Below are positions 1 through 17,149 of a DNA stretch of 64,000 nucleotides, in pieces. The notes beneath the pieces were generated by a model. It had not been told where the DNA came from, ran no database searches, and worked only from the letters and a program-made list of their open reading frames with translations. Source of the DNA: Lutimonas halocynthiae (GTDB lineage Bacteria > Bacteroidota > Bacteroidia > Flavobacteriales > Flavobacteriaceae); the NCBI RefSeq assembly GCF_030409835.1, contig NZ_JAUFQO010000004.1, positions 868,001 to 932,000 on the forward strand. Direction: 5' to 3'. The number at the start of each line of letters is the position of its first letter. Position 1 is the first letter of the stretch. The position numbers were made by a program, and so were the translations under genes.

Positions 1-2625
1 ACTTTCAACAATAATCTCACCCTTCATAAGGTCTACTAACGAATGGGTAATGCTCATACCCAAGCCGGTTCCTCCAAATTTTCTGGTAATTGAGGCATCT
101 TCCTGACTGAATTTTTGAAACAAATTTCTCACAAAAAGAGGATCCATTCCGATGCCGGTATCTGTTACACTGATTTCAACCTTTTGCTCCGCATTAATGT
201 CTTCCAAAACAATACAACTAATATCAACGCCCCCTTTTTCTGTGAATTTTATAGAGTTCGAAACCAAATTGAGTAAAATCTGATTTAAACGATAAGGGTC
301 TCCTATCAGCACATTATCCAAAGCTGGATCACAAAAATTATTAGTCAGTTTCAGTCCTTTCTCCTCTGCTTTGTACATCATCCCCTGGATGACTTTCTCT
401 ACCAAATATTTCGGGTCGAAACCAATATTCTCGACACTTAATTTTCCTGCCTCAAGTTTTGCAAGATCCAGCACATCATTAATAATTACCAATAAATTCT
501 CAGATGAATTCGTGATGGTTTCCAGATACACTTGTTGCTTTTCATTCAAGGAAGTTTTTTGAAGTTGACTGCTCAGCCCCATGATTGCATTCATCGGTGT
601 TCGAATCTCATGACTCATGTTTGCTAAAAAATTCTGTTTTGATCTGGCCAGATCCTCTGTCACCTTTTTTGCGATTTTTAGCTCTTTTTCTGCTAAAATT
701 CGATCGGTAATATCCACTGCAAAACCAATGACATAAGGCTCTTTTCCTGGTTCTTCTTTTAAAAAATTATTATATAGATTATAAACAATACTTCCGTCTT
801 TATGTCTAATTCTGAAAACCCCTGTTGCTTCTTTATCTTTTAATATTTTTTTCAAATACACATTGTGAAATAGTGATTTGTCAGCCTTAGGCATATAATC
901 AGTTAAGTAACGTCCAATCACCTCTTCATCTTTATATCCATACAATTTATAAACCATAGGGTTCACCGTAAGAAATCTTCCATTTAAATCATGGGTTGTG
1001 ACAATGGCCAAAGTGTTATCAATCACATCTCGATACCTTTTTTCGCTTTGCTCCTTCTCATGCTGAATCTCTTTGATATTTGTAATGTCGATTCCATAGC
1101 CAATTACAAGTTCTACTTTATCATCCCTGTTAATCACAGGGAACATATTTCTCATGATATAATGAATGCTATCATCTGGTTGTTTCAATTCTTCTTCCCA
1201 GCTTTTCAATTTTTTGGAATCCAAAACACTTTTGAAAACCTTCTTTCTGCCATCCAGAAGTGATAAGGGTTTATTACGCTTTTTAATATAGTCTTCATCT
1301 TTTTTACCAATCATCCATTTTCGCAGCACTGGATCTTTAATCCCTTTAGGGTTGATATATAAATACGTGTGTTCAGGATCAAAAACGGCAATATCTGTGG
1401 GGATATTATCCAATATCTGTTCATAAAACTTTCTTTGATTCTCGAGTTTTTCCTGTGCCTGCTTCTCAAAAGTAATATCTTCTTCAATGGCGAAAAACTG
1501 GCTCACTTCTCCTTGATCATTAAAAAGAGGTTGGGCATTGATTCGCAACCAATAACCTTCTCCTGTTTTTGTATAATTATAAATCTCGCAAGTAAATGGC
1601 TCCTTATTTTGGATCTGCCTTTTCATATAAGCGATGGTTTCAGGGTTTGTCTTTTCTCCCTGTAACAAGCTACCTGGTGTTTTGCCCTTTACTTCAAGCA
1701 ATTCATAACCAGTCATGTTCACAAATCCATTATTGATCCATTCAATTTTTCCATTGGCATCAGTGATAATAACTGCATTAACGGTTTTTTGAACAATCAA
1801 TGACAATTTCTCTAATTCGAGTTTATACTCTTTTTGTCTGGTAATATCTGTCCCATAGAAATTAATATAATCTTCTCCCAACACCGGAACACACGTGAAT
1901 GAATAATCTATATTATTTGAACTACATTCTAGTTCCCATTTATCTGATTTTTGCTCAAAATCCTTAACGATCAGCTTAAAAAACGCATCATTGCGATAGG
2001 TTACACCTTCATACTCAATGAAATCTAGTTTTGCCGCGGCCGGATTATTCTGAATTAAATTTCCTTTATGATCTATTCTTAATAGCGGGTCTGGATTTTG
2101 TTCGGTAAAAAGAGCAACATCTTTGAACTTGCTATTCGCTATTTTAAGCTCACTTTTTTGCTCGTTAATTGTACTGATTAATTCTTTAAGATCTTCATTG
2201 GTAAGCTCAACTGATTTTAATACATGAAGCAGATCAACCAACGGGTCATGGTTTGCAAAATCATTTATAACCAGGTTCTTTTCCGTAATTTGCGCCATTG
2301 AATTAAACCAAGGAGTGCCGACAAACAATATCTCGCCAGCTTCTTCTAACAGTTCAAACTGCCCGCGCAAGGTTAATTCGGTGTCTAAAGATGATTTCAG
2401 CACTATTAATTGATTCTGAACTGAGACCAAATCATCAAAATGCTTTATTTCAGTTCGAGGTCTTGGAATTGAAAAATAATCATTGAATAAACTCCCTTCA
2501 GAAAGAGGAATCACCTTGACTAGCGATCTTCCCAAACCGGTCACTTGCAGATCACGATTGATCTTTATGTAAAACGGGAATATCCTGTCAAGTTGTGCGC
2601 CGCTAAATGAAAAAGAATGGTTCAT
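1..2625 (-). CDS. HNOBA/multi-PAS sensor histidine kinase (partial, C-terminus off window)
   Basis: The reading frame is open from an ATG at 2625 to the window edge (875 codons seen). The first ~110 residues resemble an HNOB-associated (HNOBA) domain, the partner domain of H-NOX proteins. About four PAS domains follow, roughly residues 170-270, 275-400, 400-530 and 535-650. The HisKA box is NMSHEIRTPMN with H672 as likely phosphate acceptor, then the HATPase signatures NLVSNSIKF, DTGIGM and GGTGLGM. The protein has no predicted transmembrane segment in the part seen, so it is probably cytosolic. The start lies 3 bp after the H-NOX stop codon, so the two are almost certainly translated together. 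Inference: H-NOX binds the HNOBA domain and modulates autophosphorylation. A C-terminal receiver domain is possible but lies outside the window. Confidence 0.93.
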   Translation of the reverse strand, partial: MNHSFSFSGAQLDRIFPFYIKINRDLQVTGLGRSLVKVIPLSEGSLFNDYFSIPRPRTEIKHFDDLVSVQNQLIVLKSSLDTELTLRGQFELLEEAGEILFVGTPWFNSMAQITEKNLVINDFANHDPLVDLLHVLKSVELTNEDLKELISTINEQKSELKIANSKFKDVALFTEQNPDPLLRIDHKGNLIQNNPAAAKLDFIEYEGVTYRNDAFFKLIVKDFEQKSDKWELECSSNNIDYSFTCVPVLGEDYINFYGTDITRQKEYKLELEKLSLIVQKTVNAVIITDANGKIEWINNGFVNMTGYELLEVKGKTPGSLLQGEKTNPETIAYMKRQIQNKEPFTCEIYNYTKTGEGYWLRINAQPLFNDQGEVSQFFAIEEDITFEKQAQEKLENQRKFYEQILDNIPTDIAVFDPEHTYLYINPKGIKDPVLRKWMIGKKDEDYIKKRNKPLSLLDGRKKVFKSVLDSKKLKSWEEELKQPDDSIHYIMRNMFPVINRDDKVELVIGYGIDITNIKEIQHEKEQSEKRYRDVIDNTLAIVTTHDLNGRFLTVNPMVYKLYGYKDEEVIGRYLTDYMPKADKSLFHNVYLKKILKDKEATGVFRIRHKDGSIVYNLYNNFLKEEPGKEPYVIGFAVDITDRILAEKELKIAKKVTEDLARSKQNFLANMSHEIRTPMNAIMGLSSQLQKTSLNEKQQVYLETITNSSENLLVIINDVLDLAKLEAGKLSVENIGFDPKYLVEKVIQGMMYKAEEKGLKLTNNFCDPALDNVLIGDPYRLNQILLNLVSNSIKFTEKGGVDISCIVLEDINAEQKVEISVTDTGIGMDPLFVRNLFQKFSQEDASITRKFGGTGLGMSITHSLVDLMKGEIIVES

Positions 2626-2628
2626 AGT

Positions 2629-3171
2629 CTACCAGCTAACCTTAAATATTTCATGTGAATTACCTTCATCTCGAGTTTGCATCAAATCAATTGAAGTTTC
2701 AACACCATACATCTTGCCTAAACCGCTTAACAAACCCCTGACAAATTCCTGCAGACCTTCTCGCTTAGAAAAATAATGCACATGTATTGAGTTGTTTTCT
2801 ATATCAGAAACTTTAAACTCAGGTGGGGTCAACTTTGGGTACATCAACATGATTCGGTTATGGAACTGGGGCAGGTTAACCAGAAACTCTTTTAGATTAT
2901 TTCCTCCCGCCTCCATCAAGCCTCCATACTTCTCTTTTCCGGTTCTCAATATCCACCATTCGCCAAAAGCGTTCAATACCTGGCCAACAGTAATTCCTAT
3001 TATTTCAGATGTTGCTCCGGCCAGTTGAAAAGTTATGTCGTCGTCATATGGTTCATTACTTAAAAAGTAATCTACGTCAACACCACTCTTTTCTTTGATC
3101 AATTCCCATTTATCCGCACCGAAATTTTCAGTTACAAGATCTTGAATTGCTTTATTTACTATTCCGTACAT
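2629..3171 (-). CDS. H-NOX (heme nitric oxide binding) sensor protein
   Basis: 180 residues, full length for a stand-alone H-NOX domain. The proximal heme ligand is H104 (in LPQFHNRI), followed by P117 and the heme-propionate motif Y133-x-S135-x-R137 (YFSKR). The start MYGIVNKAIQ matches the family N-terminus. H-NOX proteins bind NO, and in some clades O2, at a ferrous heme and control a partner kinase or cyclase. No tyrosine is seen just after the YxSxR motif where O2-binding members carry their distal-pocket Tyr, so NO selectivity is the better guess. It lies between the FIST gene (27 bp upstream) and the HNOBA kinase (3 bp downstream), the expected partner. Expected location is the cytoplasm. 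Confidence 0.96.
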   Translation of the reverse strand: MYGIVNKAIQDLVTENFGADKWELIKEKSGVDVDYFLSNEPYDDDITFQLAGATSEIIGITVGQVLNAFGEWWILRTGKEKYGGLMEAGGNNLKEFLVNLPQFHNRIMLMYPKLTPPEFKVSDIENNSIHVHYFSKREGLQEFVRGLLSGLGKMYGVETSIDLMQTRDEGNSHEIFKVSW

Positions 3172-3198
3172 ATTATGATTTTAAGTTGAACAATTATT

Positions 3199-4338
3199 CT
3201 AGTCTTCATAAAATGAAGTAATGGTCATGGTTTGATTATGCAATTGACATTTCCCCCCTGACACAACCGGAGAAATTTCACCATAAGAATAAAACCCAGC
3301 CATGATGGTTTTGTGATCAAATGATTTACTAACAGACTTTATCTCTTCTTCAATTTTAGTATCTAAAATGAGTTTTCTTCCAACGCAACTTATCAGCAGG
3401 GCAAAATCCGGCTCATCTCTTCTTTCAATGATTGTTTGGTCTGCCGCGTTTGATGCAGCCTGAATGATCTTATCAAAATTTGCTTTCATAAATCTAACCT
3501 CAGAACCCACAGGAACATCACCCGCAAAAGTCATGCTTTTGTCTTCTTCATTTATTGATAAAATTGTTCTTACAATAGGTTCAGTAGCTCCTGGAATCGT
3601 AACAGATAATGGAAACAAAAGGGCTGATCCAGGTAATTTCTTAGATTCTTCTCCCAAATACTTTTTATAGAGATCTAAGGCGTTTTGATCTTCCAATTCA
3701 AGTAATACATTGCTGGCAGAATTGGTAACTCTCTTTTGCAAACCAAAGATGTCCCAGCCACCCTGAGATCCATGTGTCACCGTCAAACTATTTCCATAAA
3801 ACCCGATGGCCATGATTTCACCTTCTATCGGCTGCTTATTTAAACCAACCAAGGTAGATTCGAAATTTGCATCATCCCCGGCAAGACCTCCGGTAATCAA
3901 AATATTCTTAGCTACCTGCGTTGAAAGGCCTTTTACAAGTTCACTGCCATTGACCAAACTACCATCAGAAAATACCAAAATATAACTAAGATCATTCTTT
4001 GGTAATTTTTTACCCAAACTTATTGCGGCTTCATAGCTATTCTTGTAATCTTTGATATTCACAGTAGTCGATCGAATCACTGTTTTATCAAACTCCATGG
4101 CAACGACTACTACGGAATTATCTAAGACGCTTTCCTGACAAATCTCCCCGGCTGTGCTTGCCATGGCTATTTCTGCTGCTGGAAATTTTGCTTTGAAATT
4201 CTTATAGATGTTTTCATCTGAAAGATTAAATTTTGAAGCAAAGCATAAAACCAAGTTTACATTTTCATCATTAACGTCTTGACTCTTGGGGTCTTTCTCC
4301 CAACTATTATCATATACCTTATAAAGTGCTGTCTTCAT
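3199..4338 (-). CDS. FIST-domain protein, NosP-like candidate second NO sensor
   Basis: 379 residues with the FIST_N/FIST_C architecture: an N-terminal half with ASTAGEI and a glycine-rich ILITGGLAGDD segment, and a C-terminal half with LISCVGRK and a terminal MAGFYSYGEISP stretch that is characteristic of the family. FIST proteins are cytosolic ligand-binding sensors next to signalling enzymes; the NosP subgroup is known to bind heme and NO and to regulate kinases. It is the first gene of the operon FIST - H-NOX - HNOBA kinase and is preceded by a sigma54-type promoter (4386-4401) and paired operators (4463-4497). FIST membership is clear; the NosP assignment is from context, and a heme ligand cannot be picked out by eye. 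Confidence 0.88.
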   Translation of the reverse strand: MKTALYKVYDNSWEKDPKSQDVNDENVNLVLCFASKFNLSDENIYKNFKAKFPAAEIAMASTAGEICQESVLDNSVVVVAMEFDKTVIRSTTVNIKDYKNSYEAAISLGKKLPKNDLSYILVFSDGSLVNGSELVKGLSTQVAKNILITGGLAGDDANFESTLVGLNKQPIEGEIMAIGFYGNSLTVTHGSQGGWDIFGLQKRVTNSASNVLLELEDQNALDLYKKYLGEESKKLPGSALLFPLSVTIPGATEPIVRTILSINEEDKSMTFAGDVPVGSEVRFMKANFDKIIQAASNAADQTIIERRDEPDFALLISCVGRKLILDTKIEEEIKSVSKSFDHKTIMAGFYSYGEISPVVSGGKCQLHNQTMTITSFYED

Positions 4339-4385
4339 TTAAACTATTGAATTACATGGATTAGTATTCGATTCATCGAATAAGG

Positions 4386-4401
4386 GCCAAAATTGTGCCA
4401 A
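4386..4401 (-). promoter_or_regulatory. sigma54-type promoter of the FIST/H-NOX/kinase operon
   Basis: On the minus strand the element reads TTGGCACAATTTTGGC: -24 GG at 4399-4398, ten bases, then -12 GC at 4387-4386, the canonical GG-N10-GC. Transcription would start near 4374, about 36 nt before the ATG at 4338. The first G is exactly 64 bp from the near edge of the paired inverted repeat at 4463. Confidence 0.8.
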
Positions 4402-4462
4402 TTTAAAATTATAATCAAACTGCTGAATATCAGAGACTTATAATTATTTTTGATTATTATTT

Positions 4463-4497
4463 TTCCATATTATGGAAAATAATTCCAATTTACGGAA
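4463..4497. promoter_or_regulatory. paired inverted repeats, putative enhancer for the sigma54 regulator
   Basis: Two perfect copies of TTCC-N7-GGAA lie at 4463-4477 and 4483-4497, starting 20 bp apart (two helical turns). The same pair recurs before five other transcription units in this window. It sits between the regulator gene stop (4507) and the promoter of the NO-sensor operon, so it probably activates that minus-strand operon. Confidence 0.8.
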
Positions 4498-4506
4498 AAG
4501 CACTTT

Positions 4507-5853
4507 TTATTCTAGCTCACCCGCCTGCATCATTTTATAAATGGTGCTCTTACCAATATCTAAAACTTTAGAAGTCGCAATCACGTCATTATCGTTTTTG
4601 TTTAAGTAATACTTTATGATATCACAGGTATATTGTCTCAATGTTTTTTGTTCTGCCATAAACACTTCCTCCCGTTTAGTGGAAGTATAGGTAATATCAT
4701 CTGCATCAATTTCATTGTTCTCACACATCACCGCAGCGAGGTCAATCATCGCCTTGAGTTCTCTTACATTTCCTGGAAAATAATACTGCAATAATTTGTC
4801 TTTTGCTTCTTTGGTGAAATGAATACTGCCCAGGGCATTTTCCTTTGCAAAATCATCTAAAAAATGTTTGGCAAGAATCAACACATCCCCACCTCTTTCA
4901 CGCAAGGGTGGCAAGCTAATTGGCAAGCCCATAATTCTAAAATAAAGGTCTTCTCTAAATGTTTCTTTCCTTACCTCTTCGGCCAGATCTTTATGTGTAG
5001 CAACGATAAGGCGCACATCTAACTTAATATTTTCAGTACCGCCAACACGAACCAATTCTCTCTCTTGTAAAACACGGAGTAATTTAGATTGTATACTTAA
5101 ATCTAATTCTGCTATTTCATCTAAAAAAAGAGTTCCACCATTTGCTTCTTCAAACTTTCCAATTTTACGCGAAATAGCTCCAGTAAATGCTCCTTTTTCA
5201 TGTCCAAAAAGATCACTTTCAATTAACTCTAATGGAATAGCAGCCATATTCACCGCTATAAATTTCTTTTTCCTCCTATTACTATTATAGTGAATTGCTT
5301 TCGCAACCAATTCTTTACCCGTCCCTGTTTCACCTGAAACGGAAATATTGATATTGGTTTTAATAGCTTTTTCCATCATTCTAAAAACCTTCTTTAGCGC
5401 ATCACTTTGCCCTATGATAGACTTATCGAATGAATATTTCTGACCCAGTTCTTCTCTAAGATTGGCTACTTCCTTTTTTAGAGTTTGTGTCTCACGAATC
5501 CGCACAACACTGTTCCATAAAAGGTCTTTTGTAGCTTCATCCTTTATCAGATAGTCACTTACCCCTAATTTTAAGAGGTTAACCGCCACAGAAATATCTT
5601 CTTGTGAACTGATCATAATAACCGGTAATTGAGGATTGATATCCCTTATCTTTTTAAAGAGCTTGTCTCCGGTTAGATCTGGTAATGAAAAATCTAGGGT
5701 CACCAAGTCAGGTTGAAGTGACATATTTGAAAGACACTCTTTTCCAGTTTTAAAAAGTGTCACCTCATAATCTGGATTCAAACTAAGATGGTATTGCAAT
5801 ATTTCACCATACCATTCGTCATCCTCAACAATAAAAATTTTATATAAGTCCAT
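4507..5853 (-). CDS. sigma54-dependent response regulator (NtrC family)
   Basis: 448 residues from the ATG at 5853; an in-frame GTG at 5886 would add 11 residues before the conserved receiver start and is less likely. Receiver domain at 1-120 with acidic pocket E10-D12, phospho-acceptor D54 and K104. AAA+ domain ~145-370 with Walker A GETGTGKE (174-181), the sigma54-contacting GAFTGA loop (221-226), Walker B TLFLDEI and arginine finger region REDLYFRI. A Fis-type helix-turn-helix occupies ~421-445 (DVIATSKVLDIGKSTIYKMM). Activators of this class hydrolyse ATP to open sigma54 promoters from upstream enhancer sites. It lies between the NO-sensor operon and the polysaccharide locus, and paired TTCC-N7-GGAA sites plus sigma54 elements flank both, so it is the likely regulator of all of them. 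Confidence 0.95.
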   Translation of the reverse strand: MDLYKIFIVEDDEWYGEILQYHLSLNPDYEVTLFKTGKECLSNMSLQPDLVTLDFSLPDLTGDKLFKKIRDINPQLPVIMISSQEDISVAVNLLKLGVSDYLIKDEATKDLLWNSVVRIRETQTLKKEVANLREELGQKYSFDKSIIGQSDALKKVFRMMEKAIKTNINISVSGETGTGKELVAKAIHYNSNRRKKKFIAVNMAAIPLELIESDLFGHEKGAFTGAISRKIGKFEEANGGTLFLDEIAELDLSIQSKLLRVLQERELVRVGGTENIKLDVRLIVATHKDLAEEVRKETFREDLYFRIMGLPISLPPLRERGGDVLILAKHFLDDFAKENALGSIHFTKEAKDKLLQYYFPGNVRELKAMIDLAAVMCENNEIDADDITYTSTKREEVFMAEQKTLRQYTCDIIKYYLNKNDNDVIATSKVLDIGKSTIYKMMQAGELE

Positions 5854-5901
5854 AATGATTAAAAAGCGTGCCTGAATATCAAGCACATTATTTTTCGCCT
5901 A

Positions 5902-6240: not shown

Positions 6241-6257
6241 TTTGGCACCGCTATTGA
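6241..6257 (+). promoter_or_regulatory. sigma54-type promoter of ugd-uxs
   Basis: TTTGGCACCGCTATTGA: -24 GG at 6244-6245, ten bases, then GA at 6256-6257. The -24 box is perfect and the -12 box is weak (TTGA rather than TTGC). Predicted start of transcription is near 6268, 22 nt before the ATG at 6290. The element rules out translation from the earlier in-frame start at 6242. Confidence 0.65.
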
Positions 6258-6289
6258 AAAGACACTTAACAAATAAAATATATATCATT

Positions 6290-7663
6290 ATGAAAATTGT
6301 AATTGTTGGAAGCGGATATGTCGGACTTGTTACCGGAGCCTGCTTTTCAGAAGTAGGTATAGAAGTTGTTTGCGTCGATGTTGATCGTGAAAAAATTGAA
6401 AACCTAAACAAGGGTATTATCCCAATTTATGAACCTGGCTTGACAGATATGTTGACCCGTAACATGAAAAAAGGCCGAATAAGCTTTACCACAGATATCG
6501 CTAGTGCTGTAAAAGATTGTGAAGTTGTCTTTATTTCAGTAGGAACACCTCCAGACGAGGATGGTAGTGCAGATCTAAAATATGTTCTTTCAGTGGCCCG
6601 AGATTGTGGCAGGAATATGAAGGATTATTTACTGGTTGTCACTAAAAGTACGGTGCCTGTTGGAACTTCAAAAAAAGTTAAACTAGCAATTCAGGATGAA
6701 TTGAACAAACGAAATGCTGACATTAAATTTGATGTCGCATCAAACCCTGAATTTTTAAAAGAAGGCGCAGCGATTGCAGATTTTTTAAAGCCAGATCGAA
6801 TCGTTATTGGTTTAGAAACTCAAAGATCCGAGGAACTGATGAAAAGCTTGTACAAGCCTTTTACTATGAATGGGCATCCATTAATCTTTATGGATATCGT
6901 TTCTGCAGAGATGACCAAATATGCTGCAAATTCAATGCTTGCCGCAAAAATCAGTTTTATGAATGACATTGCCAATCTATCCGAAATTGTAGGGGCTGAC
7001 ATCAATCAGGTTCGAAAAGGGATTGGTTCTGACTCTCGTATTGGAAATAAATTTATTTATCCAGGAATAGGGTATGGCGGATCATGTTTTCCAAAAGATG
7101 TCCAGGCACTAATCAGAACAGCGGGTGAATACAATTATGACCTGCGTGTATTGAAAGCTGTTGAAGCCGTAAATAAGGATCAGAAATTGGTGCTCTTTAA
7201 CAAAATTAACAATTTCTTTGACGGAGATCTTAATGGCAAAACAATTGCCTTATGGGGCCTCTCTTTCAAACCTCAAACAGACGATATGCGAGAAGCGCCT
7301 TCTCTTGTCATCGTTCAGAAACTTTTAGAAGCCGGCGCAAAGGTCAGAGCTTATGATCCGGTTGCAGTAGAAGAAGCGAAACATCATTTTGGTGATAGTA
7401 TTGATTATTTTGATGACCAATACGAAGCCTTGATCGATGCAGATTGTGTTGCCATATTAACTGAGTGGCCTGAATTTAAATTCCCCAATTTCAAAATTGT
7501 AAAGAAACTTTTAAACTTTCCAGCAGTATTCGATGGCCGTAATATCTATGACAAAGATGATATGTTCGAAGATGGCTTTAATTATTTCTGTATTGGTATT
7601 GACACAAAGAAAATCACAACATCAAATGCTGCTCCCGTTCAGGTAATGGAGAGCTTGGTATAA
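6290..7663 (+). CDS. ugd: UDP-glucose 6-dehydrogenase
   Basis: 457 residues from the ATG at 6290, typical family length. The N-terminal Rossmann motif is [17 protein letters not shown]; the NPEFLKEG substrate-binding segment follows; the catalytic cysteine is in GGSCFPKD; the C-terminal domain has [17 protein letters not shown]. The enzyme oxidises UDP-glucose to UDP-glucuronate with two NAD+ in the cytosol. The next gene decarboxylates that product, so the pair supplies UDP-glucuronate and UDP-xylose for the polysaccharide genes downstream. An in-frame extension to 6242 is rejected because it would begin inside the sigma54 promoter. Confidence 0.97.
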
Positions 7664-7691: not shown

Positions 7692-8669
7692 ATGACACGT
7701 AAAAAAATATTAGTCACCGGAGGTGCTGGCTTTGTCGGATCACACCTATGTGAACGATTACTTAATGAAGGAAACGAAGTTTTTTGTCTCGATAACTTTT
7801 TTACCGGGCAAAAACAAAATATAGTACACTTACTTGACAATCCATTTTTTGAATTGATTCGTCATGATGTTACTGCTCCCTTTTTCATCGAAGCAGATGA
7901 AATTTACAATCTGGCTTGCCCGGCTTCACCGATTCATTATCAATATAACCCAATTAAAACCATGAAAACATCGGTAATGGGTGCCATAAATATGCTGGGG
8001 CTTGCTAAAAGAATAAAAGCGAAAATATTACAAGCCTCAACAAGTGAGGTCTATGGAAATCCGCTTGTGCATCCTCAACCAGAAGGATATTGGGGTCATG
8101 TGAATCCAATTGGAGAACGTTCTTGTTATGACGAAGGAAAAAGAGCTGCAGAAACTTTGTTTATTGATTACAACAAACAGAACCAAGTTGATATCAAGAT
8201 CATCAGAATTTTTAATACTTACGGGCCGCGAATGCATCCCAACGATGGCAGAGTTGTCTCAAACTTTATCGTTCAGGCACTACAAAACCAGGATATCACC
8301 ATTTATGGTCAGGGTCAACAAACAAGGAGCTTCCAGTTTATAGATGACTTGGTCGAAGGAATGATTAGGATGATGGCTTCCGGCGATCACTTTCCCGGCC
8401 CAGTTAATATTGGCAATCCGGTTGAATTCACCATTCTTGAATTGGCAGAAAAAGTCATACAACTCACAGGATCTCAATCAAAAATTATCCATAAACCTTT
8501 ACCATCAGATGATCCAATGATGAGACAACCAGATATAACACTTGCCAAAAAAGAGTTAGACTGGTCTCCAAAAATAGATCTAGATGAAGGCTTAATCAAA
8601 ACAATCGAATTCTTTAAGTCTGATCTGTTCAAACTTGAGCCTGAAAATATTTATGAAGAAATAATGTAG
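7692..8669 (+). CDS. uxs: UDP-glucuronate decarboxylase (UDP-xylose synthase)
   Basis: 325 residues, an extended SDR enzyme. NAD-binding motif [15 protein letters not shown] at residues 8-22, catalytic Tyr-Lys in [10 protein letters not shown], and the UXS-type HDVT, STSEVYG and [10 protein letters not shown] motifs. It converts UDP-glucuronate to UDP-xylose with tightly held NAD+. It follows ugd by 28 bp, so the two steps form a short pathway operon ended by the terminator at 8706-8747. The polymer made downstream therefore probably contains xylose, glucuronate or both. A related epimerase cannot be excluded, but the ugd neighbour supports this call. Confidence 0.93.
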
Positions 8670-9049: not shown

Positions 9050-9433
9050 ATGTTTTATCAAGTAAATACACAAACAAACTCGGAACAATTATACAACTTA
9101 ACTATGGTTGATAAAATGTGCCGTGGCAAACAGGAGACTGTCTTAAAAATGGTCAAGGTATTCATTAGCCAAATTTCAAAATCAGTTCAAGAAATAACAG
9201 AGGCTTATCAAATAAAAGACTTTCGAAAAATTAAAAATGAAATTCATAAAATAAAGCCAACACTCACCTATTATGGAACCGCCAAAATCAAAAAAGAATT
9301 ACTGGTGCTGGAAGAACTTGTAAATGGAATTTTTACAGCAGAAGAAATAGAAATAAACATCACCACACTTAATACAATAATAACACAAACTGTAGCTAAA
9401 ATGAAAATTGATTTTAGCATTTCAAACAACTAA
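9050..9433 (+). CDS. HPt (histidine phosphotransfer) domain protein
   Basis: 127 residues, all helical in character. The segment KNEIHKIKPTLTYYG matches the HPt active-site helix, with H66 the likely phosphate carrier. HPt proteins shuttle phosphate between hybrid kinases and response regulators. It is the first gene of a polysaccharide operon and overlaps nothing, with the next receiver gene starting 1 bp after its stop. Inference: it relays phosphate from the large HNOBA kinase (if that has a receiver domain) to the sigma54 regulator or the adjacent receivers. The usual HPt glycine after the lysine is replaced, so the match is moderate. Confidence 0.75.
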   Translation: MFYQVNTQTNSEQLYNLTMVDKMCRGKQETVLKMVKVFISQISKSVQEITEAYQIKDFRKIKNEIHKIKPTLTYYGTAKIKKELLVLEELVNGIFTAEEIEINITTLNTIITQTVAKMKIDFSISNN

Positions 9434-9434
9434 A

Positions 9435-9824
9435 ATGATGAAGAAAAAAATATTGATTGTAGATGACGAGATAAGTATCTGTCTTTTATTAGAAAACTTT
9501 CTTTCCAGAGACTATGATGTTTCAACCATTCAAGATGGACATGAAGCGCTCAAATGGCTTGAAGGGAATCTTCCTGACCTTATTATCAGTGATATTCAAA
9601 TGACCAAAATGGATGGATATGAATTCCTGACTGAAGTTCGTCAAAGAGGCTTTACCAAGCACACACCCTTTATAATGCTTTCTGCCAGATCAGAAAGTAA
9701 AGAGCGCATAAAATGCTACAAACTTGGTGCACAAGACTACTTGACAAAACCTTTCAACCCGGATGAGCTTGAAGAATTGGTTAAAAAGAACTTGTTCCCT
9801 ATTCACTACACAATTGAATGGTAA
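9435..9824 (+). CDS. single-domain response regulator (CheY-like receiver)
   Basis: 129 residues from the ATG at 9435 (a second Met follows directly). One receiver domain: acidic pair D10-D11 in LIVDDE, phospho-acceptor D53 in LIISDIQM, K105 in DYLTKPF, so all catalytic residues are present. No output domain. An upstream in-frame ATG at 9408 would overlap the HPt gene and is disfavoured. Stand-alone receivers act as phosphate intermediates or bind target proteins. Its place between an HPt gene and a receiver-like/transferase fusion suggests it conveys signal to the export machinery or acts as a phosphate sink. Confidence 0.93.
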   Translation: MMKKKILIVDDEISICLLLENFLSRDYDVSTIQDGHEALKWLEGNLPDLIISDIQMTKMDGYEFLTEVRQRGFTKHTPFIMLSARSESKERIKCYKLGAQDYLTKPFNPDELEELVKKNLFPIHYTIEW

Positions 9825-9872: not shown

Positions 9873-11072
9873 ATGAAAGCTTCACTAAATATACTCTATG
9901 TTGGTAATGAGACCAAGTCTTTGGAAAAAATCCGCTATCAGGATAACTGTTCACTGACTGTTCTTAATAACAACCTCAGTGCCGTAAATTATCTCAACAC
10001 AAATAAACAGCCAGATGCGATCATTTGTGACTATAACTTACCTGGCAATAATGGCATGTTTCTATTCGATTGGATTAGAGATCGCACCCTTTATAACAGC
10101 ACCCCCTTTATCCTCTTAGAACGTGAATTCAACAGCGACAATTTTAAACTGGCTTTCAAAAAACAAGTGGATGATTATTTTGTGACTTCAACTTTGTTAG
10201 CTAGCAATTTGCTGAATAGAATTCAATATTTATCTGACTTCAGAAACAAGCCTTCTTCTTTAGAAAAGGTTGTCCCTGTTCAGGAATCATACAAGATGCC
10301 ACTTTCAAAGCGCATTTTTGACATTGTACTGGCATCAACTGCCCTTTTATTTGCTGCCCCTTTTTTACTGCTCATTATACTTGCCATCAGACTTGAATCA
10401 AAAGGGAAAGTATATTATATCGCAAAAAGAGTTGGGCGTAAAACCTTTGATTTCTACAAACTTCGTTCCATGCGAACCGGCTCTGACGAATTACTCAAAA
10501 ATTTAGCAAAGGAAAAGAATCAATATAACAATGTCTCGAAACCAATTGATCATGATGCAGAGGCAACTTGCCCAAAATGCAAGAACTTACGCAATGGTAA
10601 AACCTGCTCTCCGGTAATGTATGTTGACACAAATGAAGTTTGTGAATACTGGCATAATTTTCAGCAAAATAAGGCGGCAGAAAACAGTGCTACTTTTGTA
10701 AAAATCTCTAACGACCCTCGTGTAACCAGAGTCGGTAAATTCATAAGAAACACGAGCATCGACGAATTACCTCAGCTTATCAATGTCTTAAAAGGTGACA
10801 TGTCTATTGTAGGCAATCGCCCCTTACCGGTTTACGAAGCTGAACTGCTTACTGAAGATACAATGTCCAAAAGATTTCTGGCTCCTGCAGGCATTACGGG
10901 CTTGTGGCAGGTAGAATTGAGAGGTCAAGGTGGTGTTATGTCTGAAGCTGAAAGAATGAAACTTGACAATGAATATGCCGACCATTTTAGAGGAGACAAC
11001 TTCTCGTTTTGGTATGATATAAAACTCATACTACGCACCATACCTGCCCTACTTCAAAAGGAGGCGGTTTAA
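9873..11072 (+). CDS. pseudo-receiver fused to initiating sugar-phosphate transferase
   Basis: 399 residues. Residues 1-125 look like a receiver fold (LNILYVGNET, DAIICDYNLPGNNG with D53) but the N-terminal acidic pair and the conserved C-terminal Lys (DYFVTS here) are missing, so it is probably a non-phosphorylatable receiver. Residues ~145-399 are a PF02397 bacterial sugar transferase: KRIFDIVLAS, a membrane helix at ~151-172, KLRSMRTGS, the RNTSIDELPQL motif, GNRPLPVYEAE and PAGITGLWQVELRG. Such enzymes move a sugar-1-phosphate to undecaprenyl phosphate at the inner membrane and start repeat-unit assembly. An insertion at ~230-262 carries C233, C236, C245 and C257, like a small metal or disulfide site, which is unusual. 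First assembly gene of the operon. Confidence 0.92.
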   Translation: MKASLNILYVGNETKSLEKIRYQDNCSLTVLNNNLSAVNYLNTNKQPDAIICDYNLPGNNGMFLFDWIRDRTLYNSTPFILLEREFNSDNFKLAFKKQVDDYFVTSTLLASNLLNRIQYLSDFRNKPSSLEKVVPVQESYKMPLSKRIFDIVLASTALLFAAPFLLLIILAIRLESKGKVYYIAKRVGRKTFDFYKLRSMRTGSDELLKNLAKEKNQYNNVSKPIDHDAEATCPKCKNLRNGKTCSPVMYVDTNEVCEYWHNFQQNKAAENSATFVKISNDPRVTRVGKFIRNTSIDELPQLINVLKGDMSIVGNRPLPVYEAELLTEDTMSKRFLAPAGITGLWQVELRGQGGVMSEAERMKLDNEYADHFRGDNFSFWYDIKLILRTIPALLQKEAV

Positions 11073-11096: not shown

Positions 11097-11846
11097 GTGA
11101 AACTAATTAATAAATACTTGCTGCTTATCATTCTTTACGGATGCTTTTGTTCGGATGCCTGGGGTCAAACCGATTCTATTACCAAGACAACCGACTACAG
11201 AAATGGAATCAAAATTCCTTCGCTGTATGTATTGATCGACTCAGCTATCAATCACAATGCCATGGTGCGTTACCGAAAGCAGACCATCGGAGTTAAAGAG
11301 GCTGACCTTAAATCTGAGAAGCTTGACTGGACAAGAAATTTTGGGATTCAAGCCGATGGACGATATGGGAACTTTAACAACAACTCCATTAGTGTTGATG
11401 AAGGAAATTCGAGCCTCCTTGCTTCATCGACCACTCAATTTAATTACGGGGTTGGTTTGTATTTAAAATTCCCGGTTTTTGATGGAATTAATCGTAGAAA
11501 TCAGGTTAAAAAAGGGAAGATAGAAATGGAGCAGGCAAAGAGTCTTGCAGAGGCCCAGAAAGATGAAGTAAGGCAACTTGTTATCAAACAATACCAGGAA
11601 CTCACACTAAAACAAAAATTATTAATTATCAATTCACAAAACCTGGGTAATGCTAAGGTAAATATGGAAATGGTAGAAAAAGAATTCAGAAGTGGCGTGA
11701 TTTCAATCTATGAATATGTGCGCCTGTCTGATATGACTTCGAGAATTGAATCTGACTATGAAAATGCAAAATCAGATTTTCTACTAGCAAAAAAGCTAAT
11801 GGAAAACTTAGTGGGATTCTCAATTACTAAATACCAATCAAACTAA
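11097..11846 (+). CDS. short TolC-family (outer membrane efflux) protein
   Basis: 249 residues from a GTG start at 11097. Signal peptide with the segment LLLIILYGCFCSDAWGQ, probably cleaved after GQ. The body has the OEP helix-strand-helix pattern (LIDSAINHNAMVRYRKQ, then a strand-rich FNYGVGLYLKFPVFDGINRRNQV, then a long coiled coil). Normal TolC proteins have two such repeats and ~420-480 residues; this has one, so it is either a half-size variant or a gene that dimerises differently. No frameshift or second half is visible. It is 24 bp after the transferase and 4 bp before the Wzc-like gene, so it is likely the outer-membrane or periplasmic export partner. Confidence 0.78.
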   Translation: MKLINKYLLLIILYGCFCSDAWGQTDSITKTTDYRNGIKIPSLYVLIDSAINHNAMVRYRKQTIGVKEADLKSEKLDWTRNFGIQADGRYGNFNNNSISVDEGNSSLLASSTTQFNYGVGLYLKFPVFDGINRRNQVKKGKIEMEQAKSLAEAQKDEVRQLVIKQYQELTLKQKLLIINSQNLGNAKVNMEMVEKEFRSGVISIYEYVRLSDMTSRIESDYENAKSDFLLAKKLMENLVGFSITKYQSN

Positions 11847-11850
11847 AAAG

Positions 11851-14265
11851 ATGAAAATAATTGAATTCATAAGATTACTAATTAAGCATAAGGTATTGTT
11901 GATTGCGATACCCTTGTTGCTGGCTGGTTTGGTTATTCTACTTACCCTCAAGCCAAAATTTATTTACGCTTCTCAAACGATCCTTTATACCGGGCTCGCT
12001 TCAGGGTCGTCTATTGAAATGGATAAGAAGTTTAATTATATGGCTACGAATACGGCATTTGACAATCTAATTAATATCATTAATTCCAGAGAAACCCAAG
12101 AGGAAGTTGCGATTAGACTTTTAAGTCAACACTTGCTTTTACCTGCTGCCGATCAAAAATATATTTCTTCCAAGCTCTTTGATGAATTACAGGAAAAAAT
12201 ACCCCAAGACCTTTATGACTATGTCGTTACGGATAGTATCGATTCTTCAAACGGGATGGGTTCTTTAAACCAAACATCCAATAACGATGAATCTTTATCA
12301 TTTGCTAATACTGAAAACAATCTCTTATTCCCTTCAGTTATAAATAGATACAATTACGAAAAAACGGTAGAGAACCTCACTGCACTAATGAAAAGCAGTA
12401 GCAACAATTTTGTATATGAATTACTTAATTATGAAGATGAGCATTATTCAATCAAAGCCATCTCTGAAGTCAAAGCTGTAAGAATATCCAATAGCGACTT
12501 GATAAAATTAAGCTATCAGGTAAATGACCCCGGTATTTGTCAACAAACACTTGCTATATACAACGAAGTTTGTATAAGAAACTATAAATACATCAAGGAG
12601 AATAGATCAGATGCTGTCGTGAAATACTTTGAGACACAGCTGGCCCATGCTAACAACGACCTTAAAGAGGCAGAAACTAAACTCCTGAATTTCAATAAAT
12701 CTTATAATATCATCAATTACTATGAGCAAAGTAAAGCCGTGGCTGTGGTAAAAGAAGAAATGGAAGTTGATTACAACAATAAAAAAGCACAACTGGCAGG
12801 TACTGAGGCAGCGACAAAAAGGCTTGAAGAAAAACTAGACATTCAACAAGATGTGCAGTTAAAAAGCGAAAAGATACTTGAGAAAAAGAAGGAACTGGGA
12901 GATCTAAATTTTCAAATTGCCATGGCAGAGGCAGCATCTGAAAACGATGAAAACAGCCTTCAAAGAATGGAATTGTTAACAAGTCAATCTGCAGCCCTTG
13001 AAAAAGAAATAAGTGAAGGTGTTACTGATTTATATAGTCATCAAAACAGTGTTGACGGAATGCCAATTAATGATGTACTTCCTCAATGGATGGATAATGT
13101 TATTGAATCTGAAAACCTAAAGGCAAAAATGGAGGTGATGGATCAACGGAATACTGATTTTCAAAAGCAATACGCCGTTTACGCCCCTGCAGGAGCTAAC
13201 ATCAAAAAAATTGAAAGGGAGATTTCAGTTTCTGAACAAGGCTACCTGGAATTACTCCACGGATTAAATCTAGCCAAACTTAAATCTCAGGATAATGAAT
13301 TGTCTTCAAATCTTAAGACCATTGACCCTCCTTTTTTTCCCTTATCACCCATCCCTACCAAAAGAAAGCTTCTCATCATTGGTGCTGTCTTCATCGGATT
13401 CATATTTGTTTTTGGAACTATTTTAGTTATGGAATATTTTGATGACACCCTAAAAAATGCGAAAAAAGCATCTGAAATTCTAAAGCTTCCGGCTCTTGGT
13501 ATGATGCCAAAAATATTGCTGAATCCAGGGCCTGTTAACATGCCCTTTATTCAAAAGCGTTTGACTGAGATTCTCACTCAAAATTTAAAACAATCCCTAG
13601 GCACTGACCCTTCAAATAATACTGCCAAAACAATTTTGTTTGTGAGTACTAATGAAAAAGAAGGCAAAACTGTGATGGCCTGCAATATTGCCAGGAAACT
13701 TATAGAACAAGGTAAAAGCGTATTGGTACTGAATTATTCAAAAGACCAACAGCGTATTGATCAAAAAGGAAAGTCTCATTTGATCAACAATCTAATGGGC
13801 TATCCTGACCCAAGGATAGATATTGATAATGCATTTCTTGACAATGCATCAAATTATCTGCAAGCCACAACCTATTTATCTTATCATATTGACGAGCAGT
13901 TTTATAAAACGACTGATTATAAAGATATTCTTGAGCAAAATGGTCTGAAGCTAAACTTTGTTCCTGACTATGTTTTTATTGAATTACCATCTTTGATTCA
14001 TCACAGTTACCCAACAGATTTAGTGGCTAAAGCCGATATGTCAATCTTAGTTTGTCGTTCGAACAGACTATGGACAGATGCAGATCAATCAGTTCTAAAT
14101 GGCCTAAATCAACTGACAGCATCAAAAACAGGGTTCATAATCAACGGTGTCGAAATCAAAGAGGTAGAAACTGTGTTAGGTGATTTGCCTAAAAAAAGGA
14201 CGCGGTTAAGAACAAAAATTAAAAACGTCTTCCAGTTTCAATTCTATTCTAAAAATCACATATAA
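11851..14265 (+). CDS. Wzc/GumC-like polysaccharide co-polymerase with degenerate tyrosine-kinase domain
   Basis: 804 residues. A Wzz-type N-terminus with a membrane helix at ~14-32, a long periplasmic part rich in coiled coil (~260-480), a second helix at ~505-525 preceded by the proline-rich PPFFPLSPIPTKRK, then a cytoplasmic ATPase-like domain. That domain is degenerate: the P-loop region is TNEKEGKT (600-607), Walker A-prime Asp is N628 (LVLNYSK) and the Walker B Asp is E711 (VFIELP). There is no C-terminal tyrosine cluster. In the family such proteins set chain length and join the inner-membrane assembly complex to the exporter. This one is probably a structural co-polymerase with little or no BY-kinase activity. 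Confidence 0.9.
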   Translation: MKIIEFIRLLIKHKVLLIAIPLLLAGLVILLTLKPKFIYASQTILYTGLASGSSIEMDKKFNYMATNTAFDNLINIINSRETQEEVAIRLLSQHLLLPAADQKYISSKLFDELQEKIPQDLYDYVVTDSIDSSNGMGSLNQTSNNDESLSFANTENNLLFPSVINRYNYEKTVENLTALMKSSSNNFVYELLNYEDEHYSIKAISEVKAVRISNSDLIKLSYQVNDPGICQQTLAIYNEVCIRNYKYIKENRSDAVVKYFETQLAHANNDLKEAETKLLNFNKSYNIINYYEQSKAVAVVKEEMEVDYNNKKAQLAGTEAATKRLEEKLDIQQDVQLKSEKILEKKKELGDLNFQIAMAEAASENDENSLQRMELLTSQSAALEKEISEGVTDLYSHQNSVDGMPINDVLPQWMDNVIESENLKAKMEVMDQRNTDFQKQYAVYAPAGANIKKIEREISVSEQGYLELLHGLNLAKLKSQDNELSSNLKTIDPPFFPLSPIPTKRKLLIIGAVFIGFIFVFGTILVMEYFDDTLKNAKKASEILKLPALGMMPKILLNPGPVNMPFIQKRLTEILTQNLKQSLGTDPSNNTAKTILFVSTNEKEGKTVMACNIARKLIEQGKSVLVLNYSKDQQRIDQKGKSHLINNLMGYPDPRIDIDNAFLDNASNYLQATTYLSYHIDEQFYKTTDYKDILEQNGLKLNFVPDYVFIELPSLIHHSYPTDLVAKADMSILVCRSNRLWTDADQSVLNGLNQLTASKTGFIINGVEIKEVETVLGDLPKKRTRLRTKIKNVFQFQFYSKNHI

Positions 14266-14275
14266 AGCTTCGACT

Positions 14276-15667
14276 TTGAAAAAAACAATAAGAAATATAA
14301 TACATGAAGATAATTTTCTTTCTCTGGCAGGAAATGTAGTCATTGCCATTTTAGGAATTGCAGGTTTCGCAATACTTGCCCGTAGCTTCTCACTGAACAT
14401 TTTCGGTGAATGGGTATTATTTATTACTGCGGGATCGTTTATCGAAATGTTCCGATTTGGTATTACCAACACAGGCTTAATAAGATACCTGTCTGGAGCA
14501 GATCAAGATGAAAGAATTAAATATATAGGATCAAATGCGCTTATAAGCTTAGGTGTTACTGCATTGATAGCAGTGGTTTTAATACTTTGCAATATTGTAT
14601 TTTATGAAGCCATAAAAAATTCTGGTTACCAACTTTTCTTTACCTGGTACCCTATTCTGGCTTTTCTAAACCTTCCATGGAATATCGCATTGGTGGTGCT
14701 CCAAGCCGACAGTAAGTTCGGAAAGATACTAGCATTGAAATCGATCAATAGTATTTCTTTTTTCATTGTGCTGGCAGCTAATTTCTTCTTTTTTCAAATG
14801 ACACTGACCGAATTGATATGGGCCTTGTTATTTATTAATGCCATGACCTCTATAGTAAGCATTCTCGCTGGATGGGATGGACTAAATCATATCCGAAGGG
14901 CCAGTATTGCTACGAATAAGAAGTTACTGGATTTTGGAAAATACACCACGTTTACACTAATAGGAACGAACCTATTACGGAGTGCAGACACCCTGATTAT
15001 CAGCTTAAGTCCTCTGGGTAACGAAGCTGTTGCATTGTATAGTATTCCACTCAAATTAACAGAATTACAACAAATACCCTTAAGAAGTTTTGTCGCGACG
15101 GCTTTCCCTAAAATGTCGAAGGCAAGTATCAACGGAAAAGTATCAGAAGTAAAAGAGCTTTTTTATACCTATTCAGGAGCTATTAGCTTTTTATTTATTT
15201 TCATAAGTCTTTTCACTTTTATTTTTGCCGATTTATTTGTCATGCTTCTAGCTGGCGATAAATTCTTGCAAAATGATCCGGTGACCGGATTCAACGCTGC
15301 TGACATTGTTCGTGTATTTTCCTTTTACGGATTGCTATTACCTATTGATAGAATGACTGGTATAGGACTCGATAGTATCAATAAGCCCAACATAAATGCC
15401 CTGAAGGTTTTACTTATGGTTGTGGCCAATGTTACCGGAGATCTTATTGCCATTTTTATCTTCAAGTCATTAATTCTGGTTGCAGTATCCTCGATCATTT
15501 TCACGGTACTTGGTATCTGGCTAGGCATGTATTTCTTAAGTCGTGAACTCTCTTTACAATACAAGCAAATCTTTATTGCAGGGATACAATTTTATAAATC
15601 ACTTTTTCATCAGCTTATGACTAAAAAACCAGCTCAAAGCATAAACGCCTATCACAAATACAATTAA
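14276..15667 (+). CDS. Wzx-like polysaccharide flippase
   Basis: 463 residues from a TTG start at 14276, 10 bp after the co-polymerase. About 12 hydrophobic segments spread over the whole length with few motifs, typical of MOP-family oligosaccharide flippases. The next in-frame Met lies near residue 59, inside the membrane region, so the TTG is the best start. It would move the undecaprenyl-linked repeat unit across the inner membrane. It precedes the polymerase gene by 3 bp. Family is clear from hydropathy and context rather than from a fixed signature. Confidence 0.88.
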   Translation: MKKTIRNIIHEDNFLSLAGNVVIAILGIAGFAILARSFSLNIFGEWVLFITAGSFIEMFRFGITNTGLIRYLSGADQDERIKYIGSNALISLGVTALIAVVLILCNIVFYEAIKNSGYQLFFTWYPILAFLNLPWNIALVVLQADSKFGKILALKSINSISFFIVLAANFFFFQMTLTELIWALLFINAMTSIVSILAGWDGLNHIRRASIATNKKLLDFGKYTTFTLIGTNLLRSADTLIISLSPLGNEAVALYSIPLKLTELQQIPLRSFVATAFPKMSKASINGKVSEVKELFYTYSGAISFLFIFISLFTFIFADLFVMLLAGDKFLQNDPVTGFNAADIVRVFSFYGLLLPIDRMTGIGLDSINKPNINALKVLLMVVANVTGDLIAIFIFKSLILVAVSSIIFTVLGIWLGMYFLSRELSLQYKQIFIAGIQFYKSLFHQLMTKKPAQSINAYHKYN

Positions 15668-15670
15668 GAC

Positions 15671-17149
15671 ATGACGATAGACAATAACATAAATCCATTT
15701 GAAAAGCATTCAGGCTCAGCCAATATAGCGAACCTAAGGGCGATTGTATTGTTATTGATAATGGTAGGTTTATTCGCAGTATTACTTGCTAAATTGGAAA
15801 TAATAGGTGTAGGTCTTTTATTTGCTATTTTCTTTGGAAGTATCTATTTGTACATATTGTTTAAAAACCCAATAGTTGGTTTTTACACCGCAATAGGCCT
15901 TAATTTTGTTTTACTTGGAATTGGGCGCTACGTTCAAGGCTTACCCCTAGGTTTTGGTATAGATGGGATTATAGTTTTAACCTTTCTTGCCTTGTTTTTT
16001 TCAAAATTTAAAGAGCGAATTAATTGGTCTCCTGCCAATAAAGACATTACGCTTTTTGCTGCGATATGGTTGGGGTATTGTATTTTCCAAATCGTTAATC
16101 CAGAGGCTCAAAGTATATCCGCCTGGATATCTGGCAGAGGTATAGGGTTTTATTTCTTTCTGTTTATTGTGCTCACTTTTATGCTTATCGATACCAATAA
16201 AAAATTAGATGGGCTTCTATATGTTTGGGGCGTTTTTTCAATAATTGCAACCCTGAAAGGGATGATGCAATTGTACATCGGAGTAGATGCAGCAGAACAG
16301 GCATGGCTAAATGCTGGAGGTGCCGAAACACATGTTTTATTTGGCAAATTAAGAGTTTTCTCATTTTTCAGTGATGCCGGGCAATTTGGGGCTAATCAAG
16401 GCTATTCTGGAGTAGTAGCCATTATTTACTCGATGACTAAAAAAGGCTTACCTAAAATTTTCTTTATAACAGTTGGCATATTAGGCTTATATGGAATGAT
16501 GATTTCAGGAACCAGAGGGGCAATTAGTGTACCTGTAATTGGGTTTATGACATTTTTTGTTTTAAGAAAAAACATTCGCATACTAAGTTTTGGAATGCTC
16601 ATCATGGTATGTTTATTTGTTTTTTTTAAGTACACCACAATTGCACAAGGTAATGATCAAATAAGAAGAATGAGAGGCGCTTTTGATCCTAATAACAAAT
16701 CATTACAAGTAAGACTCGATAATCAAAAAATTATGAAGGGTTATTTGGCTTCAAGGCCTTTTGGAGGCGGTATTGGCCATGCTGGAGACAAGGCACAACG
16801 TTTTTTACCAAATGCATTTCTGTCTCATGTTGCTACAGACAGCTGGTATGTTTTAATATGGGCAGAGCTCGGTATTGTAGGCTTGGTTTTACACTTATTC
16901 ATTTTGTTTTATGTGATTGGAAAGGCAGCTTACAAGGTCATGTTTAAAATTCGAGATCCGATAACAAAATTGAAGATAGGAGCCCTGATCTCTGGAATGG
17001 CAGGTGTCATGGTCGCATCCTATGGCAATGCCGTATTTGGAGGCATGCCAACAGCTTTATTAATGTATGCTTCTATGGCAATTATGTCAAATCCAGAGAC
17101 ATTTGAAACCAATATTGAAGAAAAAGATGTTGAATTAATTAAAGCTTAA
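15671..17149 (+). CDS. O-antigen ligase/Wzy-like polymerase
   Basis: 492 residues with about 11-12 transmembrane segments. The central GMMISGTRGAIS motif and the large loop with GGGIGHAGDK followed by SHVATDSWYVLIWAELGIVG match Wzy/WaaL-type enzymes, which polymerise or transfer lipid-linked glycans on the periplasmic side. It ends the operon starting at 9050: HPt, receiver, initiating transferase, TolC-like, co-polymerase, flippase, polymerase, the complete set for Wzy-dependent synthesis apart from the sugar-adding transferases, which are in the next unit. Confidence 0.9.
   Translation: MTIDNNINPFEKHSGSANIANLRAIVLLLIMVGLFAVLLAKLEIIGVGLLFAIFFGSIYLYILFKNPIVGFYTAIGLNFVLLGIGRYVQGLPLGFGIDGIIVLTFLALFFSKFKERINWSPANKDITLFAAIWLGYCIFQIVNPEAQSISAWISGRGIGFYFFLFIVLTFMLIDTNKKLDGLLYVWGVFSIIATLKGMMQLYIGVDAAEQAWLNAGGAETHVLFGKLRVFSFFSDAGQFGANQGYSGVVAIIYSMTKKGLPKIFFITVGILGLYGMMISGTRGAISVPVIGFMTFFVLRKNIRILSFGMLIMVCLFVFFKYTTIAQGNDQIRRMRGAFDPNNKSLQVRLDNQKIMKGYLASRPFGGGIGHAGDKAQRFLPNAFLSHVATDSWYVLIWAELGIVGLVLHLFILFYVIGKAAYKVMFKIRDPITKLKIGALISGMAGVMVASYGNAVFGGMPTALLMYASMAIMSNPETFETNIEEKDVELIKA

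Follow-up and report, generated by a model that had tools for sequence, protein, structure and literature searches.

Gene content of the locus and the initiating transferase

The window, by which we mean the whole stretch of 64,000 nucleotides from Lutimonas halocynthiae analyzed here, carries a polysaccharide operon on the forward strand and, divergent from it, a cluster of nitric oxide (NO) genes on the reverse strand that spans positions 1-5886 (Table 1). Within the operon, the sugar-nucleotide epimerase/dehydratase is probably a UDP-glucuronate decarboxylase, and the transferase gene is followed by four genes for export and polymerization. The gene for an LruC-domain protein (TIGR04456, E 1.5e-58; positions 29011-31017, reverse strand) also lies near the polysaccharide cluster.

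Table 1. Genes and sequence features of the locus, in window coordinates
Feature	Position	Strand	Evidence or remark
Hybrid kinase HNOBA-PAS-HisKA-HATPase-REC-Hpt, C-terminal part	1..2625	-	Entire gene in L148:9155-12625
H-NOX heme NO-binding protein	2629..3171	-	PF07700, E 1.8e-46
FIST-domain protein, NosP-like	3199..4338	-	68.3 bits, far under NCBIfam NosP cut-off of 450
Sigma-54-dependent response regulator	4507..5886	-	Divergent from the operon
UDP-glucose dehydrogenase (Ugd)	6242..7663	+	MKIVIVG start at 6290
Sugar-nucleotide epimerase/dehydratase	7692..8669	+	Pfam epimerase families
Hpt-like phosphotransfer protein	9050..9433	+	PF01627, E 0.0042, below cut-off; C-terminal region of BarA model, E 1.7e-5
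Stand-alone single-domain response regulator, intact phospho-acceptor site	9408..9824	+	PF00072, E 8.8e-31
Receiver-fused monotopic phosphoglycosyl transferase (initiating sugar transferase), 399 aa	9873..11072	+	ATG start
Pseudo-receiver domain, residues 1-125	9873..10247	+	AF2 receiver fold; acidic pair replaced by G-N, Lys by T, D53 kept
Long N-terminal helix of transferase domain, residues 144-175	10302..10397	+	AF2 model
Insertion with four-cysteine motif, residues 219-274	10527..10694	+	Structure alignments, homologue alignment
C233 codon (knuckle, CPxC)	10569..10571	+	Alignment
C236 codon (knuckle, CPxC)	10578..10580	+	Alignment
C245 codon, directly ahead of hairpin	10605..10607	+	Alignment, AF2 model
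C257 codon, hairpin end/start of next helix	10641..10643	+	Alignment, AF2 model
Catalytic-type Asp-Glu pair D297-E298	10761..10766	+	Unchanged in 71/71 rows
Export/polymerization genes	11097..17149	+	Four genes
OEP-like	11097-11846	+	Family match
Chain-length determinant	11851-14265	+	Family match
Flippase-like	14276-15667	+	Name inferred
Wzy-like	15671-17149	+	Family match

A first-pass annotation of the DNA had described the transferase as an initiating sugar transferase carrying a receiver domain, and Pfam recovered both parts. The match to PF02397 (E 1.6e-52; 178.1 bits against a cut-off of 27) was split over two stretches, of which residues 268-394 formed the better one, and the Response_reg match (PF00072; E 4.5e-7) scored 30.5 bits, marginally over its cut-off of 30.2. 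Among solved proteins, the phosphoglycosyl transferases (PGTs) PglC and WbaP were the top relatives, and an AF2 model of the protein (mean pLDDT 86.4), built on an alignment of 71 rows, aligned with both (VIA Z 19.7 to PglC 8e37 and 19.4 to WbaP 8t53). The Asp-Glu pair was conserved throughout the alignment, and we assume its catalytic role from work on PglC. Helix 144-175 is presumed to be a re-entrant membrane helix, a role that we take over by analogy with PglC and WbaP.

By profile, Asp-Glu pair and fold, the protein is assigned to the PF02397 monotopic PGTs, with sugar-1-phosphate transfer to undecaprenyl phosphate as its predicted reaction, by which it would start Wzx/Wzy-type exopolysaccharide synthesis. 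The class of large monoPGTs, with a DUF and membrane helices, is excluded, since the 399 residues comprise the receiver and the catalytic domain only. The nearest relative found was a protein of Lutibacter agarilyticus (70% identity); over the last 250 residues, the transferases of two genomes of the window's family matched proteins of Algibacter pacificus and of a Flaviramulus MAG, on which ground we assign that family to Flavobacteriaceae.

The four-cysteine insertion in the catalytic domain

The cysteines that the first-pass annotation had numbered C233, C236, C245 and C257, and had placed in an insertion inside the PF02397 domain, were found exactly there. Alignments to the WbaP structures ended at residue 212-213 and restarted at 268 or 276, which set the boundaries of the insertion, and PglC aligned from residue 277. 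The cysteines are spaced C-x2-C-x8-C-x11-C, and only two more, at residues 26 and 52, bring the protein to six. Of simulated proteins with six cysteines placed at random, 0.9% had four of them inside a span of 25 residues; the conservation pattern is far stronger evidence for a real motif than this clustering figure.

Conservation was read from the 71-row alignment, which includes the window protein and omits transferases split into two ORFs in MAGs (L027, L029), duplicates (L108, L111, L112), the window's own gene retrieved again (L107), other PGT types (L002-L007, L089-L106), distant PGTs (L041-L087 bar L052) and some search matches to which no locus had been assigned. Eight of its rows (L109, L110, L113-L118) came from a query with the insertion only and are biased toward cysteine-bearing forms. 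The cysteine set was all-or-none, with 44 rows holding all four, 27 holding none and not one holding part of the set; leaving out the eight insertion-query rows, it was complete in 36/63 and absent in 27/63. Were the four sites independent, the probability of this pattern would be vanishingly small, a figure that is illustrative only, given the relatedness of the rows. The set was kept or lost as a unit in both Flavobacteriaceae and Bacteroidales MAGs. The transferases of L027, L029 and L229, each in two ORFs on MAG contigs, reflect a frameshift or an assembly error.

The residue after C257 was Glu or Asp in each of the 44 cysteine rows. At the C257 column of the 27 cysteine-less rows we found Ser (7), Asp (6), a gap (4) or another residue (10, Asn among them), and so no uniform replacement is claimed. 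Several cysteine-less relatives, for example L026, retained a similar LxYxDG...E stretch. A tree calculated by a quick method, with the receiver and insertion columns omitted, needed seven changes of cysteine state; its starred branches force only one, so that repeated gain or loss is not demonstrated.

In a wider and partly cysteine-selected set of 144 distinct PGTs, which also holds loci from further cysteine-biased queries absent from the 71-row count, the motif occurred in 64, with four cysteines in 62 and a fifth in 2. The remainder had a long region with no cysteine (28), a short one with none (44), or a short one with a single stray cysteine (7), plus one probable artifact. The row L041, scored as long with one cysteine, looked like an artifact of the search pattern; its matched stretch crosses a membrane segment. 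The motif is not tied to the receiver, being present in 4 of the 11 rows of the 71-row set that lack a fused one. Short transferases without a receiver and with the same four-cysteine insertion were seen in L131, L136, L137 and L139. The genome of the window itself holds five further PGT-like ORFs, and the four that were checked (L002, L003/L007, L004 and L006; L005 was left out) lack the motif. The cysteines had been called unusual for the family; this is true by comparison with WbaP, PglC and the more distant PGTs checked, but by these alignments many members of this Bacteroidota subfamily carry the set.

In the AF2 model, where the confidence across residues 231-260 was high (pLDDT about 91), the insert is predicted to consist of a short helix (234-237, the knuckle), two strands (248-251 and 254-257) and a longer helix (258-272), with C233 and C236 in the knuckle, C245 ahead of the first strand and C257 at the junction of the second strand and the helix. 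We take this order of knuckle, hairpin and helix to be that of a treble-clef finger; the predicted positions of the four conserved metal-type ligands, two in the knuckle, one preceding the hairpin and one where the helix starts, also agree with such a finger. Folded by itself, the insert gave the same elements at a mean pLDDT of 70.9.

Searches with the insert itself returned faint signals. Foldseek gave 35 matches, none of them significant (best E 2.7); 26 of these 35 weak matches were, by our own count, zinc domains (LIM, ZBD, RING), and many were copies of LMO2. VIA-align against 43 chains yielded no match reaching Z 2, and Pfam searches with the 44 inserts gave weak matches only, with zf-primase in 6/44 (best E 0.014; 15.6 bits against a cut-off of 28.8). 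A single disintegrin match in a sequence search against solved structures (E 6.2) was discarded as chance. Because of the conservation of the cysteines and their predicted layout, we consider that the insert probably holds a structural zinc ion in a treble-clef-like site.

The first-pass annotation had proposed a metal or redox switch. Its metal site survives as a prediction from the all-or-none cysteines and the treble-clef-like arrangement. A switch in which the four cysteines react with NO or oxidants, as a disulfide, a labile zinc or an iron-sulfur cluster, and so gate the transferase directly, could draw on the CPxC knuckle, but the cysteines were kept or lost jointly across 71/71 rows, in Flavobacteriaceae and Bacteroidales MAGs alike, and the model arranges them as in a structural zinc site. 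The NO genes bear on the same question and are taken up below.

The pseudo-receiver and the regulator encoded upstream

The N-terminal domain adopts a clear receiver fold in the AF2 model (VIA Z up to 18.6 across residues 1-124). As had been noted from the sequence, it lacks the acidic pair and the conserved Lys; D53 is kept, though. Sixty fused receivers were present in the set, and all but L088 (masked letters) and L125 (a gap) could be read at all key positions. A complete phosphorylation site, with acidic pair, Asp and Lys, was found in 0 of these 58, in line with the earlier doubt about phosphorylation. The receiver of L088 retains the Asp and the Lys, its acidic pair being masked. Of the 60 fused receivers, 23 had E at the phospho-Asp column, 15 had D and 7 had N. 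To judge from these residues, the fused domain probably accepts phosphate no longer.

The adjoining regulator gene tells a different story from the fused domain. In the window, it is an ORF of 138 aa that ends 48 nt ahead of the PGT, and among 54 adjoining upstream regulators, chosen by a pattern that favors intact sites, the phosphorylation site was complete in 49. Counting ORFs that match the window's regulator by BLAST at E 1e-4 or better, a response regulator lay within 900 nt upstream of 58/60 fused PGTs vs 4/11 unfused ones (Fisher p 8e-6, relatedness ignored), the two exceptions among the fused being L088 and L119. The gene order extends further: of 35 loci compared, 33 had the regulator before the transferase, 31 the OEP-like gene and 30 the chain-length protein, and in L032, L038, L039 and L040 the OEP-like gene was not seen.

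An intact regulator encoded next door to a fused domain that has lost its phosphorylation site points to docking between the two, and the same gene pairing agrees with the earlier proposal that the surface of the fused domain may bind partners. There is a precedent for such contact. According to PMC12802240, the phosphorylated single-domain regulator EpsW of Myxococcus xanthus activates the initiating transferase EpsZ post-translationally, as concluded from proximity labelling and heterologous activity. By analogy with EpsW on EpsZ, the likeliest role of the pseudo-receiver would be docking of the upstream regulator, and control of the EpsW-EpsZ type here, through contact and activation by a regulator encoded with the PGT, is what we infer. 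The same paper weakens the precedent, since it describes EpsZ as a large monoPGT whose activation is thought to go via dimerization, and small monoPGTs as functional monomers. It also states, with reference to O'Toole 2021 (PNAS), that some small monoPGTs contain receiver domains, so that the receiver-PGT architecture is not new.

The pseudo-receiver could instead be a remnant of the fold, or an oligomerization module, that makes no contact with the regulator, which would then act elsewhere in the operon. The loss of the phosphorylation site fits such a remnant, and a fusion and its neighbor gene can be co-inherited with no contact between the products. We nevertheless think it improbable, because the regulator ORF tracks the fused form in the comparison above, which ignores relatedness, and because PMC12802240 already describes a receiver protein acting on a PGT.

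Nitric oxide genes beside the operon and a combined reading

The hybrid kinase of the NO cluster has 1156 residues, with a clear HNOBA domain (PF07701, 4.8e-21) and a weak Hpt domain, and the H-NOX gene adjoins it, the arrangement of an H-NOX signaling kinase pair. We searched for H-NOX in 64 genomes (38 + 26), all picked for holding a transferase relative, and found a match in 25/38 and 5/26, that is, in 30/64, and none in the other 34 of the 64 searched. In 16 of the 30 genomes with both genes, no more than 25 kb separated H-NOX from the transferase (14 genomes from the first batch of 25, and 2 of the other 5, G196 and G812); it lay at about 10 kb or less in 15 of the 16 and at 21.5 kb in one. 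The remaining 11 of the 25 in the first batch had it 56 kb or more off or on another contig; in the second batch it was distant in G650 and on another contig in G594, and G819 was left out of the comparison. By a rough estimate that ignores relatedness, chance would give fewer than one linked genome. Fourteen of the 16 linked genomes belong to the window's family or to named Flavobacteriaceae genera, and G533 and G555 belong to another family of the class. In L178 (G742), genes for a kinase, a FIST protein, a second kinase and H-NOX stand immediately upstream of the transferase, and the stand-alone regulator between them is missing.

This linkage bears on the redox- or NO-reactive switch introduced above in two directions. 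NO-sensing genes lie upstream of a transferase with a CPxC knuckle, and H-NOX was found in 25/41 genomes with the four-cysteine form vs 5/23 with the cysteine-less one (relatedness not corrected), a higher frequency that speaks for some link. Against this, 3 of the 16 H-NOX-linked clusters (L025, L126 and L029) have transferases without the cysteines and 16 of the 41 four-cysteine genomes have no H-NOX match, and so the linkage does not require the cysteines. We regard direct gating by reactive cysteines as very improbable, and this part of the earlier proposal is not supported. Its suggestion that NO controls the first step of the pathway finds independent support in the gene neighborhood, and NO control, if real, need not use cysteines: the kinase, the Hpt protein and the regulator, or transcription, could provide the route.

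Transcription could even be the only level at which NO acts. The NO gene cluster is divergent and holds a sigma-54 regulator, so that H-NOX, the kinase and this regulator might switch the operon, with the Hpt and regulator pair answering another signal. Perfect TGGCAC elements with a partial -12 element were found at window positions 4385, 6243, 9006 and 23862, each with its end some 28-65 bp upstream of a gene start, namely those of FIST, Ugd, the Hpt-like gene and ORF 23943 (about 28 bp for the Hpt-like gene, 31 for Ugd and 46 for FIST), and by position they are suggestive of sigma-54 promoters. Their number is within chance, however: the strict -24 scan gave 4 sites in the window, and 30 simulated sequences gave a mean of 2.5 and a maximum of 8. 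A loose scan gave 75 matches vs a shuffle mean of 63.5, with 4 shuffles getting to 75. In seven related stretches, an overlapping pair included, the scan found either no -24 site at all (two stretches) or none before the matching genes (the others), and a close homologue of the sigma-54 regulator was present in only 4 of the 16 H-NOX-linked clusters. The possible sigma-54 promoters are accordingly kept as a side observation only, and we rate an action of NO on transcription alone as somewhat unlikely.

The reading to which we incline, by a little, joins these elements. An initiating PGT would carry a pseudo-receiver on which the upstream single-domain regulator, when phosphorylated, docks and sets transferase activity; we would place the route of phosphotransfer and the direction of the effect at the same conditional level as the docking. 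A treble-clef-like zinc site would stabilize the hairpin and helix within the catalytic domain, and cysteine-less relatives would retain the insertion with the metal site missing. H-NOX and the HNOBA hybrid kinase would probably pass NO information to the relay. The weak structural and Pfam matches of the insert, the D53 kept in the window protein, the Asp and Lys of L088, the divergent orientation of the NO cluster and the genomes in which H-NOX is unlinked or missing all count against this reading. A bolder version, in which NO would gate exopolysaccharide synthesis in Bacteroidota post-translationally at its first step, along a route from H-NOX and the HNOBA kinase through Hpt and the regulator to the pseudo-receiver, with the zinc hairpin relaying the signal to the active site, strikes us as distinctly unlikely.

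Undecaprenyl phosphate is scarce, and bacteria must time its allocation to any one polymer. If the joined reading holds, fusing a docking receiver to the transferase and encoding a dedicated regulator beside it would be a widespread means of controlling that timing in Bacteroidota. With H-NOX linked to such loci, an effect of NO on the first step can be put to a direct test. In the literature searched for the insert or the fusion, with the O'Toole 2021 survey outside that search, we found no description of the four-cysteine insert, and for a link between NO and polysaccharide in Bacteroidota the literature searched gave nothing. The insert is a candidate zinc site, and the linkage of H-NOX together with the pair of regulator and pseudo-receiver is the most interesting lead.

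Several known systems share parts of this arrangement. Histidine kinases associated with H-NOX have, as here, the H-NOX gene next to an HNOBA kinase gene, and the window differs in that the two are linked to an operon for exopolysaccharide that includes a regulator and a transferase with a pseudo-receiver. LIM, ClpX ZBD and RING, which we group as treble-clef zinc domains, resemble the predicted insert in the order of knuckle, hairpin and helix and in cysteines at matching places, whereas the insert has its own spacing and its structural matches to them are insignificant. With the PF02397 PGTs PglC, WbaP and WcaJ, the window protein has the catalytic domain, the Asp-Glu pair and the long N-terminal helix in common; an N-terminal pseudo-receiver replaces the membrane/DUF part of WbaP, and the four-cysteine insertion is passed over by the alignments to WbaP and PglC. 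The small monoPGTs with receivers mentioned in PMC12802240 (after O'Toole 2021) have the same make-up of receiver and small monoPGT. In EpsW-EpsZ, as that source describes it, a Wzx/Wzy pathway likewise pairs its initiating monoPGT with a single-domain regulator, but EpsZ is large, whereas the window PGT has a pseudo-receiver of its own and the regulator gene directly upstream.
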